NCBI GenBank assembly: GCA_903929535.1
Contig: CAIYVC010000089.1
Coordinates: 1-46,409, forward strand
From: an uncultured Caulobacteraceae bacterium
GTDB taxonomy: Bacteria > Pseudomonadota > Alphaproteobacteria > Caulobacterales > Caulobacteraceae
Length of the DNA stretch: 46,409 nucleotides
Direction: 5' to 3'
The stretch's first letter is position 1. Every line of letters begins with the position of its first letter. Made by a program: the position numbers and the translations under genes. Positions 6,491-31,269 of this stretch are shown here, one piece after another. The notes under the pieces were generated by a model. That model was not told where the DNA came from and searched no databases. It was given only the letters and a program-made list of their open reading frames with translations.

Positions 6491-6504
6491 ACCAAAAGGC
6501 GAAG

Positions 6505-6706
6505 CTTGGCGGTTCCCCTCGCAAGGGGGGCCAAGAGGGAACGCGGTCAGGGCCTTGCCCGATGCCGCGGCTGTACCCGCAACTGTAGGCGGCGAGGTCG
6601 CCGTCCATCCGACCGGGCCGCAAGAGCCCGGCGGCGCCACTGAGGTCAAAACCCTCGGGAAGGCGTGGACGACGCCCGATGACCCGCAAGCCAGGAGACC
6701 TGCCGC
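6505..6706 (+). ncRNA. Cobalamin riboswitch
   Basis: AdoCbl-type aptamer upstream of btuB. The core elements occur in order: AAGAGGGAA followed by CGGT, GCCGCGGCTGTACCCGCAAC, a GCCACTGAGG segment, GGGAAGGCG, GATGACCCGCAAGCC, and the B12 box GCCAGGAGACCTGCC at 6690-6704. Cobalamin binding normally shuts off the downstream gene. About 175 nt separate the aptamer from the start codon; this expression platform holds GC-rich inverted repeats (for example GGCCCCGTCCGACGGGCC near 6772-6787), but I cannot say whether control is transcriptional or translational. Confidence 0.93.
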
Positions 6707-6880
6707 CAAACGTCGCTCGTCCGAGGCCCGGGAACAGGCCAAGGCGCGGAAGTCTCCGCAAAGCGACTGGCCCCGTCCGACGGGCCGATCCGCGGCCTTC
6801 TGGCGGCGCGATGGGCCCGTGGCCACACGCTTTGCAAGGCTCGCCCCCGGCGCGGAGGCGGCCTCTGGAGATACAGCGCC

Positions 6881-20098: not shown

Positions 20099-20123
20099 AA
20101 CGCCTACGCTGCAGCTTGGTTCC
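20099..20123 (-). promoter_or_regulatory. EcfG promoter of the entericidin-like gene
   Basis: On the minus strand GGAAC (20123-20119), 16-nt spacer, CGTT (20102-20099). This matches the alphaproteobacterial general-stress sigma consensus. It lies over the last codons of phyK, and the predicted transcript starts about 30 nt before the ATG. Confidence 0.85.
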
Positions 20124-21835: not shown

Positions 21836-22441
21836 TCACCTCGGCGTGCTCAACCGCTCCGCGTCGGCGAGGATGGAGCGCATCGCGTCGCCAGCGGATT
21901 TACCGTCGCGCGTATAGGCTCCGAGTTCCAGAATTCCTTGCAGCGCGCGGCGCGCGCGGCTGACCCGGCTCTTCACCGTTCCCACGGCGCAGCCGCAGAT
22001 CTCGGCCGCTTCCTCGTAGGCGAAGCCGCCGGCTCCGACCAGGATCAGCGCCTCGCGCTGTTCGGGGGGCAGCATGCCCAGGCCCAGACGCAGCTCGTCC
22101 AGCGCCACCGGCGATTCCGGATCGTCCACGGCCATCAGGGTGCGTTCGGCGGCTTCCTGGTCCAGCTGGATCTGACGCCAGGAGCGGCGCTTCTCCGAAT
22201 AGAACTGGTTGCGCAGGATCATGAAGGTCCAGGCCTTCATATTGGTGCCCATCTGATAGCTGGCCCGGGCGTCCCAGGCCTTGATCAGGGCGTCCTGCGC
22301 CAGGTCGTCGGCGCCGGTCGGATCGCCGGCCAGGGTGCGGGCGAAGGCGCGCAGATGAGGGATCAGGGCGACGAGTTCAGCCTTGAAGGCCGCTTCCCGC
22401 TTGGGATCGGCCATGTCGTCCTGTTCGCGAGGCTCGCGCAT
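21836..22441 (-). CDS. ecfG: General stress ECF sigma factor EcfG (SigT)
   Basis: 201-residue ECF sigma factor (group 15, EcfG). Region 2 (about 20-90: LRAFARTLAGDPTGADDLAQ; QDALIKAWDARASYQMGTNM; WTFMILRNQFYSEKRR) recognises the -10 element and region 4 (about 115-170: LPPEQREALILVGAGGFAYE; CAVGTVKSRVSRARRAL) the -35 element. Held inactive by NepR until PhyR is phosphorylated. Its ATG overlaps the nepR stop by 1 nt (TAATG), with GAAGAG as ribosome site. Eight matching promoters are present in this window. Confidence 0.96.
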   Translation of the reverse strand: MREPREQDDMADPKREAAFKAELVALIPHLRAFARTLAGDPTGADDLAQDALIKAWDARASYQMGTNMKAWTFMILRNQFYSEKRRSWRQIQLDQEAAERTLMAVDDPESPVALDELRLGLGMLPPEQREALILVGAGGFAYEEAAEICGCAVGTVKSRVSRARRALQGILELGAYTRDGKSAGDAMRSILADAERLSTPR

Positions 22442-22671
22442 TACTCTTCACCCGACTTTTGGTCGGCGCGTTTGAGGATGCTGAGGAACTCGTCGGGAAC
22501 AGGCTCGTTGACCACCTGGTCGAACATTTGGCGCAGCTTCACGCCTATGGCCTGCTGGCGCAGACGCGCCTCATCCAGGGACGGGTCGCTTTTACGGCGC
22601 GGATCGGACTGCCTTTGATCGATCATTTTATCGGCCGGCGCTTTTGCGCCATCGCCCCCTCTGGTCTTCAT
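22441..22671 (-). CDS. nepR: Anti-sigma factor NepR
   Basis: 76 residues (61 if started at 22626). The conserved NepR core is QQAIGVKLRQMFDQVVNEPV followed by PDEFLSILKRAD, two helices that clamp EcfG and swap to PhyR~P. The N-terminus is variable. Start is unsettled: ATG 22671 is only about 4 nt from the predicted transcription start, while ATG 22626 overlaps the stop of a 9-codon leader frame. It is divergent from phyR, and both carry EcfG promoters in the shared 220-nt intergenic region. Confidence 0.9.
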   Translation of the reverse strand: MKTRGGDGAKAPADKMIDQRQSDPRRKSDPSLDEARLRQQAIGVKLRQMFDQVVNEPVPDEFLSILKRADQKSGEE

Positions 22672-22681
22672 GCCGGTCCAC

Positions 22682-22706
22682 AACGCCCCATGCGCCCGAG
22701 AGTTCC
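22682..22706 (-). promoter_or_regulatory. EcfG promoter of nepR-ecfG-phyK
   Basis: Minus strand GGAAC (22706-22702), 16-nt spacer, CGTT (22685-22682). It makes the sigma factor operon autoregulated. The predicted transcription start near 22675 is almost at the first ATG of nepR. Confidence 0.88.
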
Positions 22707-22746: not shown

Positions 22747-22771
22747 GGAACTCGCTCGTCTGATGCACGTT
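22747..22771 (+). promoter_or_regulatory. EcfG promoter of phyR
   Basis: GGAAC (22747-22751), 16-nt spacer, CGTT (22768-22771). It gives a leader of about 113 nt before the phyR ATG, within which 22779-22786 can pair perfectly with 22852-22859. Confidence 0.9.
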
Positions 22772-22890: not shown

Positions 22891-23685
22891 ATGAGCCTGC
22901 TAGCCCGCATCGCGCCTCATCTGCCCTATGTGCGCCGCTACGCCCGCGCCCTTACCGGCGATCAGACCACCGGCGACAACTACGTCCGCGTGGCGCTGGA
23001 AGCCCTGGCCGCCGGGGAAACCCAGCTGGACGCCAACCTCACGCCTCGCGTCGCCCTCTACCGCGTGTTCCACGCCATCTGGTGCTCCACCGGAGCCCAG
23101 TTGGAAGCGCCGCAGGACGACAACGCCGCCGACGATACCTCGCACCGGCTGATGCGGATCGCGCCTCGCTCGCGCCAGGCCTTCCTGCTCACCGCCCTGG
23201 AAGGCTTCACCCCGTCCGAAGCCGCCCAGATCCTGGACACCGATTTCGAAGAGGTCGAACGCCTGATCGGCGAAGCCCAGACCGAGATCGACGCCGAGCT
23301 GGCGACCGACGTGCTGATTATCGAGGACGAGCCGGTCATCGCCGCCGATATCGAAGCGCTGGTGCGCGAACTGGGCCACGACGTGGTCGATATCGCCGCC
23401 ACCCGCCGCGAAGCCATCGAGGCCATCAACCGCAAGGTGCCGGGCCTTGTTTTGGCCGACATCCAGCTGGCTGACGGCTCGTCGGGCATCGACGCGGTGA
23501 AGGACATCCTGGCCCGCTTCAACGTGCCGGTGATCTTCATCACCGCCTTCCCCGAGCGTCTGCTGACCGGCGAGCGGCCCGAACCCACCTTCCTGATCAC
23601 CAAGCCCTTCCAGCCGGAAACGGTGAAGGCGGCGATCGGCCAGGCGCTGTTCTTCCACCCCTCCTCGCGGCGCCAAGCGGCCTAG
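22891..23685 (+). CDS. phyR: PhyR, general stress response anti-anti-sigma regulator
   Basis: 264 residues. The N-terminal ECF-sigma-like domain (about 1-130; LARIAPHLPYVRRYARALTG; APRSRQAFLLTALEGFTPSE) mimics EcfG and binds NepR. The C-terminal receiver (about 140-260) has EDE at 145-147, phospho-acceptor Asp190 (LVLADIQLADG), Thr in FITAFPE and Lys in LITKPF. Phosphorylation exposes the sigma-like domain and sequesters NepR. ATG 22891 follows GGGAGG at good spacing; the open frame from 22777 is leader sequence. Confidence 0.96.
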   Translation: MSLLARIAPHLPYVRRYARALTGDQTTGDNYVRVALEALAAGETQLDANLTPRVALYRVFHAIWCSTGAQLEAPQDDNAADDTSHRLMRIAPRSRQAFLLTALEGFTPSEAAQILDTDFEEVERLIGEAQTEIDAELATDVLIIEDEPVIAADIEALVRELGHDVVDIAATRREAIEAINRKVPGLVLADIQLADGSSGIDAVKDILARFNVPVIFITAFPERLLTGERPEPTFLITKPFQPETVKAAIGQALFFHPSSRRQAA

Positions 23686-24039: not shown

Positions 24040-24333
24040 ATGAACAAACCCGCCGCCGCTCTTACCGCCCTGTTCCTGATCCTCGCCCCCGCCGCTCAGG
24101 CCCAGACACCCGCGCCGCGCATGGTCGGCGCCAAGGTCGTCGATGCCAAGGGCAAGGCCGTCGGCCAGATCGAGCGGGTCATCACCGGGCCGGAGGGCCA
24201 ACCGGTGCAGGTTCTGGTGCGGGTGGACCGCGTGCTGCGCACCCTGCCGGCCAACGCCCTGACCCCGGCGGCTGACGGCTACGCCTCAGTGCTGAGCCGC
24301 GCGGAGATCGCCGCCCTGCCGCCGTCGGAATAG
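24040..24333 (+). CDS. Secreted PRC-barrel-like small protein
   Basis: 97 residues with a signal peptide (cleavage after AQA, residue 21) and a short beta-rich domain (MVGAKVVDAKGKAVGQIERV; VQVLVRVDRVLRTLPANAL) of PRC-barrel type, found in small periplasmic proteins. Function is unknown. No EcfG promoter is seen directly upstream; the 93-nt gap after the DUF1328 gene contains only the hairpin at 23968. Confidence 0.75.
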   Translation: MNKPAAALTALFLILAPAAQAQTPAPRMVGAKVVDAKGKAVGQIERVITGPEGQPVQVLVRVDRVLRTLPANALTPAADGYASVLSRAEIAALPPSE

Positions 24334-24380: not shown

Positions 24381-24405
24381 GGAACAACAGCCGGGCCCCT
24401 GGGTT
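24381..24405 (+). promoter_or_regulatory. EcfG-type promoter of the GsrN-like RNA
   Basis: GGAAC (24381-24385), 16-nt spacer, GGTT (24402-24405), differing from the other sites only in the first base of the -10 element. No ORF follows; the next element is a structured RNA with a terminator. Confidence 0.75.
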
Positions 24406-24410
24406 TATGT

Positions 24411-24525
24411 GATGCGGAGGCGGCGACGCCCCCCCGACTTGAGACCGGCATTGCCCGGTCAGCTGCCTCCGCACCCCTATTCTCGATGATGCATTTCCTT
24501 AGCGGCCTTCGGGCCGCTTTTTTTT
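24411..24525 (+). ncRNA. gsrN: GsrN-like general-stress small RNA
   Basis: About 115 nt with no credible ORF. A 9-bp stem TGCGGAGGC/GCCTCCGCA (24413-24421 with 24465-24473), extendable by three pairs, encloses a seven-cytosine loop segment (24429-24435) and an inner hairpin GACCGG-CATTGC-CCGGTC (24443-24460). After a short single strand it ends in a textbook terminator, AGCGGCC-TTCG-GGCCGCT plus eight T (24501-24525). The promoter just upstream is EcfG type. Caulobacter GsrN is a SigT-dependent sRNA of about this size whose C-rich loop pairs with targets such as katG. Identity is inferred from architecture, not alignment. Confidence 0.78.
24501..24525 (+). terminator. Intrinsic terminator of the GsrN-like RNA
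   Basis: 7-bp stem AGCGGCC/GGCCGCT with a TTCG tetraloop and an eight-T tail. It is the strongest intrinsic terminator in the window and lies 8 nt from the stop of the convergent lipoprotein gene. Confidence 0.92.
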
Positions 24526-25362: not shown

Positions 25363-26329
25363 ATGACAAACGCGGATGCGTCGGCGGGAGGACCGGTCCT
25401 GGAACCGGCGCCCCGCCTGCGCCACATCGAGATCGTCGCCAACGAACATTCCGGCAGCGTCGGGGTGGGCGCCGCCGCGCAGGCCGAGGCCATCGCGCGC
25501 GCTAGGCTTCGACGTCACGGCCAGGGCCGTCGCGCCGCATGACCTGCGCGAGGGCCTGCGGGAGGCTATCGCCCGCAAGCCCGACCTTTTGGCCGTCATC
25601 GCTGGAGACGGCACCGCCAACATGGCCGCCACCCTGTGCGGGCCTGACGGGCCGCTGCTGGCCTGCCTGCCCGGCGGCACCATGAACATGCTGCCCCGCG
25701 CCCTTTACGGACACCGCGACTGGAAGACCGCGCTGCACGCCATCCTGGAGGACGGGGCGGTGATGCCGGTGGCGGGCGGGGCGGTGAACGGAAACCCCTT
25801 CCATGTCGCCGCCATCCTCGGCAATCCGGCGCTGTGGGCCCCGGCGCGGGAGGCGATCCGCGACGGCAAGCTGACTGAGGCCTGGAAACGGGCGATCTAT
25901 GCCTGGCGGCGCGCCTTCCGCTCTAAGATCCACTATTCCCTGGACGGCGGCATGCACGGCAGGGCGGAGGGGGTCGGCCTGCTTTGCCCGATCGTCTCCA
26001 AGGGCGTGCCGGACGACAATCCGGCCCTGGAAGTCGCCGCGGTCAATCCGCCGGGCATGATGGCCATTCTGCGCCTGGGTCTGGAAACCCTGGTCCTGCC
26101 CTTCCTCAGCCCGATGCTGGGCGGCGACTGGCGGGCCAATCCTTACGTCAAAATCGGCGAGTGCCGCGAAGGGCACGCCTCGGGCCGCCGCCGGGTCCAC
26201 GCCATTCTCGACGGCGAGATCGTCCGCCTGCCCAAGTATGTGAAGATCAGCTTCACCCCGGTGGCCTTCCGCGCCCTGGTGGTGGCGTCCGACAAGGGGC
26301 GGCCGGAGGGTGGCGGGGCGGCGATCTGA
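25363..26329 (+). pseudogene. Diacylglycerol/lipid kinase family gene, frameshifted near 25500
   Basis: The protein is split over two frames. The N-terminal 47 or so residues (RLRHIEIVANEHSGSVGVGA) are read from ATG 25363 and run out of frame at 25494-25504; the remainder (LGFDVTARAVAPHDLREGLR; VIAGDGTANM; CLPGGTMNMLPRAL) is in another frame and ends at 26329. Together they form a DAGK-catalytic-domain protein of normal length (GDGT nucleotide loop and PGGTxN motif present). The break is in a (CG)4 tract and one more CG unit would restore IARALGFDV. It is a sequencing error, a recent mutation or a slippage switch. Its end overlaps the next start (TGATG). Confidence 0.8.
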
Positions 26330-30813: not shown

Positions 30814-31269
30814 ATGGCGAGCATGGACAGCGCCGCCCTGACTCTTTCCGCCTGCGAGGGCAGCCGCCCGGAGATAACCAGCCTGGTCACGCGGGGCGCG
30901 GCGCGGCTGATGGCGGCGATGGGCTATGCGCCGCTGCTGGAAGTTTGCCTGCCCAACGGGCGGCGGGCGGATGTGATGGCGCTGGGGCCCAAGGGCGAGA
31001 TCGTCATCTGTGAGGTCAAGTCGGGGCTGGAGGACTACCGCGTCGACCGCAAATGGGGCGAATACCTGCCCTTCTGCGACGCCTTCTACTTCGCCGTGGC
31101 GCCGGAGTTCCCGCAGGGCGTATTGGCGCCCGAGCCCGGACTGATCGTGGCGGATGGTTTCGGCGGGGCGGTGGTGCGGGCTTCGCCGCATACGCCGTTG
31201 GCGGGCGCGCGGCGCAAGGCTTTGATTGTGGCGTTCGGCAGGCTGGCGGCGACCAGAGCGGCGGTTTAG
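30814..31269 (+). CDS. mmcB: MmcB family DNA repair protein
   Basis: 151-residue predicted nuclease of the PD-(D/E)xK type. The motif is visible as RRADVMALGPKGEIVICEVK, followed by GEYLPFCDAFYFAVAPEFP. In Caulobacter MmcB is an SOS-induced protein needed for resistance to mitomycin C, linked to ImuA/ImuB/DnaE2 translesion synthesis (from the literature). The SOS box immediately upstream supports the assignment. Its stop overlaps that of the convergent 565-residue gene. Confidence 0.92.
   Translation: MASMDSAALTLSACEGSRPEITSLVTRGAARLMAAMGYAPLLEVCLPNGRRADVMALGPKGEIVICEVKSGLEDYRVDRKWGEYLPFCDAFYFAVAPEFPQGVLAPEPGLIVADGFGGAVVRASPHTPLAGARRKALIVAFGRLAATRAAV

Follow-up and report, generated by a model that had tools for sequence, protein, structure and literature searches.

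We identified the stretch at positions 24381 to 24525 of a Caulobacteraceae contig (46,409 nucleotides, referred to throughout as the window) as almost certainly the gsrN gene of this bacterium, an ortholog of a known small RNA (sRNA). As a gene it adds one genus to those already known to carry this family; the modest new part of our analysis is a comparative mismatch, in that the loop of this RNA is nearly invariant across relatives while katG, its sole proven target, is patchy in presence, which suggests that the important GsrN targets lie elsewhere.

Identification of gsrN beside phyR

The Rfam covariance model RF01529 (CC3552) matches positions 24416-24519 at 67.4 bits, above its gathering score of 50 (E = 1e-8 in a search across the whole window); the match is single copy in the window's genome and scores lower than most of its relatives. 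Since the paper describing GsrN (PMC5869019) makes no mention of Rfam, we tested the equation of RF01529 with GsrN against the numbers given there: processed-RNA 5' ends at C53, T54, and T64, a loop with six tandem C, a C. crescentus gsrN located away from phyR, and GTCGGGG listed as the target site for katG. The RF01529 match in a C. crescentus-type genome (locus L010, genome G129; 113 bits) has six C and lies 84 kb from phyR, in line with the published separation. With the start placed at the second base of TGCGAAGG, and with no other of the nine offsets tried, its numbering gives C53, T54, and T64, and the katG leader of that genome carries GTCGGGG. Because numbering, loop, location, and katG site all match the published details, we take RF01529 to be Caulobacter GsrN. 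The features discussed below are as follows.

24381..24405, + strand: EcfG-type promoter GGAAC-N16-GGTT (sequence and pattern search)
24414..24525, + strand: gsrN sRNA gene (RF01529/CC3552 = GsrN; Rfam match 24416-24519)
24413..24424, + strand: long stem, 5' arm TGCGGAGGCGGC (fold z of -4.2, covariation)
24425..24443, + strand: predicted target-recognition loop GACGCCCCCCCGACTTGAG (C6-GAC invariant in 37 aligned relatives)
24443..24460, + strand: inner hairpin GACCGG-CATTGC-CCGGTC (compensatory changes in relatives)
24462..24473, + strand: long stem, 3' arm GCTGCCTCCGCA (fold, covariation, numbering)
24501..24525, + strand: intrinsic terminator, UUCG tetraloop hairpin plus T-run (fold z of -3.8, terminator scan)
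22891..23685, + strand: phyR, anti-anti-sigma response regulator (Pfam PhyR_sigma2, PhyR_sigma-like, Response_reg)
22441..22683, - strand: nepR, anti-sigma factor (Pfam NepR)
21836..22441, - strand: ecfG/sigT-type general stress sigma factor (Pfam Sigma70_r2, Sigma70_r4_2; adjoins nepR)

The sequence, promoter, and structure of gsrN can be read directly in the window. The promoter consists of GGAAC (24381-24385), a 16-nt spacer, and a -10 element GGTT (24402-24405) with one mismatch to the consensus CGTT, and it ends 8 nt before the gsrN start, taken to be 24414 from an alignment with C. crescentus-type GsrN numbering. Folding of the 5' domain gives -33.3 kcal/mol (z = -4.2), a stability that none of 200 shuffles reached, and the TGCGGAGGCGGC/GCTGCCTCCGCA stem of this domain is 12 bp long and encloses a loop containing a C7 run at 24429-24435. 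The terminator hairpin (24501-24518) has 7 bp and a TTCG loop, is followed by T's, and lies about 106 nt from the gsrN start. Compared to shuffles, the transcript 24413-24525 has a fold z of -4.1 and the terminator alone one of -3.8; a longer fold reached only -1.7 because the promoter was included.

An initial annotation of this DNA had proposed an unannotated, EcfG-driven, GsrN-like sRNA adjoining phyR and had called for the covariance-model comparison reported above. The Rfam match, promoter, synteny, and conserved stem and C-loop all support that proposal, and the promoter at 24381, the exposed C7, the inner hairpin, and the UUCG-loop terminator with its T-run were each found in the sequence and folds. 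The stem is likewise real, but it has 12 bp and not the 9 bp originally given, and "unannotated" holds for the supplied sequence but not for the family, which was already in Rfam.

The window copy shares with C. crescentus GsrN (CCNA_R0081; RF01529) an EcfG/SigT promoter, a long 5' stem, a C-rich loop followed by GACTTGAG, the inner hairpin, the terminator, total length, and the predicted processing point. It differs in having seven C instead of six, in its UUCG terminator loop, in its location next to phyR (a difference already published), and in the genome around it, where no katG was found. Homologs of gsrN have been reported in Caulobacter, Brevundimonas, and Phenylobacterium, typically near stress regulators (PMC5869019), and the window copy, with this published phyR-linked arrangement, is an ordinary ortholog. 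The same paper (PMC5869019, Fig. 9) describes putative GsrN-like RNAs in Rhizobiaceae with an EcfG promoter, a position near phyR, and an exposed C-rich 5' loop. RF01529 itself found no match outside Caulobacteraceae among 385 alphaproteobacterial genomes sampled (three matches in total, all in Caulobacteraceae).

By analogy with the Caulobacter work, from which the transcription, processing, and base-pairing activity of gsrN are carried over here, stress would act through PhyR to free EcfG from NepR, and EcfG would use the promoter at 24381-24405 to transcribe gsrN. The resulting RNA of about 112 nt would fold so that the long stem presents the C7 loop, which may pair with G-rich (GUCGGGG-like) sites in mRNA leaders and alter their translation and stability. 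Homology places a probable cleavage of the RNA near 24467/24468, the counterpart of C53/T54 in GsrN (the processing itself is known from PMC5869019), which would leave a stable 5' fragment, about 54 nt long, containing the loop. The linker between stem and terminator (CCCCTATTCTCGATGATGC, 24474-24498) is well conserved too, with TGATG in more than 90% of sequences; the exception is a Caulobacter subgroup that has TTTGTTGATGC in its place. GsrN has been described as exposing a further region for which targets are predicted (PMC5869019).

Conservation and distribution

Of the 348 Caulobacteraceae genomes sampled, 243 have a homolog matching RF01529; family membership, covariation, and synteny were observed directly across these relatives. 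An equivalent EcfG promoter was found at 58 of 61 loci, the exceptions being two spurious weak matches and one contig end, and at every genuine locus with enough sequence the RNA is preceded by GGAAC-N16/17 and a -10 element of GTT type. Second RF01529 matches at two loci (L060 and L061) were discarded, as they have neither promoter nor C-loop. Of 118 loci fetched by pattern, 100 have a co-oriented phyR upstream of gsrN (median distance, 695 nt), and nearly all of the others are short of upstream sequence. Co-occurrence points the same way, with phyR present in 34 of 36 gsrN-positive and 15 of 30 gsrN-negative genomes in samples that were chosen rather than random; gsrN tracks the stress system. 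With a refined covariance model (R1), 29 RF01529-negative genomes yielded three more homologs, so some of the negatives are merely divergent.

Conservation of the stem and C-loop in related genomes, on which the initial annotation had staked its reading, is clear. In an alignment of 37 diverse sequences the stems are paired in 98.0% of cells, and two-sided changes occur in 14 of 25 pairs compared to 5.9 in shuffles, a signal that is abolished by sliding the partners. Within the long stem 99.1% of cells are paired and 5 of 12 pairs have two-sided compensatory changes, as do 6 of 7 pairs in the inner hairpin helix, and six C followed by GAC are invariant in the loop of all 37 relatives.

These patterns also bear on two other accounts of the element. 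A frame of about 25 codons that opens at an ATG near 24411 and runs through the stem does exist in the window and could in principle encode a short protein, but the A before TGCGG is found in only 15 of 118 loci, the C-run varies from 6 to 10 in length among loci and would shift the frame, and conservation tracks base pairs, not codons; we regard a coding origin as the least credible of the accounts considered. Nearly as improbable is an origin as the terminator or 3' untranslated region of the upstream PRC-barrel gene (24040-24333), with no independent RNA. That gene is on the same strand and ends about 80 nt before the element; however, a conserved EcfG promoter separates gene from element in all genuine loci, and in few genera only does a PRC gene stand beside gsrN at all. 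An independently transcribed gsrN ortholog remains our preferred reading.

Patchy occurrence of katG

The only proven GsrN target is katG, whose activation in C. crescentus involves pairing of GsrN with GUCGGGG in the katG leader. A search of the window's genome (91% complete) gave no match to TIGR00198, and at this completeness absence of katG is likely, not certain. One of two congeners has katG and the other (79% complete) yielded none; over the whole set a katG match is missing in 55 of the 243 gsrN-positive genomes, several of them assembled in one or two contigs. Where katG is present, its site is rare: of 48 katG leaders sampled, only 5 have GTCGGGG within 190 nt, all of them from the genus-level group g22, and none of the 14 from the Brevundimonas group (g3) has it. 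Activation of katG via GUCGGGG, a functional trait of C. crescentus rather than a mark of family membership, was accordingly not found here. The window's genome does encode a catalase of the PF00199 type (G000:C148:10124-11281, + strand; L285), which has an EcfG-type promoter a short way upstream and no TCGGGG in its upstream region; this promoter would put the catalase directly under EcfG and not through GsrN and katG. Because katG is so often absent and GTCGGGG so rare in its leaders, the genomes sampled indicate that katG cannot be what keeps the GsrN loop constant family-wide.

Candidate targets beyond katG

The loop was scored for duplex energy against each 40-nt window across the 46 kb. 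Two leaders had been suggested as candidate targets, that of phyR and that of the gene at 25363, but by pairing energy neither does better than chance in this G-rich DNA: 11% of the 40-nt windows match or exceed the phyR leader, and 2.9% match or exceed the 25363 leader, which likewise does not stand out. The corresponding value for nepR, whose 5' region contains a GGGGGCG complementary to the loop, is 12%.

Comparison across genomes gave a slightly more favorable view of nepR and phyR. The median pairing percentile of the nepR leader against local background is 0.08 in gsrN-positive genomes versus 0.55 in gsrN-negative ones, and roughly half of 30 gsrN-positive genomes have G5-7C in this leader soon after the EcfG promoter, at a similar distance from it and in varying reading frame. 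Eight of 30 genomes, which span four genera, have GTCGGGG in the ribosome-binding region of phyR, where about 0.5% would be expected for each. The G-rich sites in these two leaders are our best guess at alternative targets, though unproven, and the mismatch between loop and katG directs the hunt for targets to the nepR-ecfG and phyR leaders, in testable organisms such as Brevundimonas.

A stronger version of this idea would retain the same sRNA and make feedback on the nepR-ecfG and phyR mRNAs its main conserved job, with control of katG arising later in some Caulobacter. If true, this would build sRNA-mediated feedback into the PhyR-NepR-EcfG switch across Caulobacteraceae. The lack of a detected katG in the window's genome and in 55 of the 243 gsrN-positive genomes, the confinement of the katG leader site to g22, the above-background pairing of the nepR leader, and the excess of GTCGGGG at phyR all fit such a role, and nepR-sigT mRNA co-purified with GsrN (PMC5869019). 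However, gsrN was without effect on EcfG-dependent transcription in published Caulobacter work, ribosome-binding sites are G-rich anyway, and the relatives compared are not independent. The nepR site is also largely missing in Brevundimonas, and one genome without detectable gsrN (L127) still has GTCGGGG at phyR. On balance we consider a primary feedback role rather unlikely, and we favor the reading of the element as an ordinary gsrN ortholog whose main targets probably lie outside katG.

Searches for exact complements to the loop gave no further candidates. Besides the gsrN antisense, the best in the window is TCAAGTCGGGG at 31016, which lies inside a coding sequence (V-K-S-G codons) that we take to be MmcB-like and was set aside as a coding coincidence. 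Genome-wide, AAGTCGGGG is not enriched: the reversed control has 85 sites compared to its 38, and of 30 sites examined most fall within open frames. The one clear intergenic site (L313) is at a tRNA end beside an integrase; the arrangement there, a tRNA gene and then an integrase (L313:1418-2610), is likely an integrated element of the same genome.

The surrounding stress island

The pattern search recovered 11 EcfG-type sites in the window compared to 1.3 expected. Those of phyR (22747-22771) and nepR (22682-22706) are among the EcfG-like promoters at 20099, 22682, 22747, 23696, 24381, 24811, 27442, and 28919, and many small genes near phyR (DUF1328 proteins and other small open reading frames [ORFs]) are preceded by such promoters, forming a compact stress island. 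A second PhyR-like protein, 53 to 57% identical, is encoded elsewhere in the same genome (G000:C73:41709-42449, - strand) and occurs in similar places in several genera. In another genome of the same genus (G002), the ORF upstream of gsrN is CheR-type-like and ends in the PhyR C-terminal residues QALFFHPSSRRQAA (L142:6788-7300, - strand); no phyR match was found elsewhere in that genome, and the arrangement reflects either a deletion or a misassembly. The window also contains a cobalamin riboswitch at 6493-6721 on the + strand (102.4 bits).
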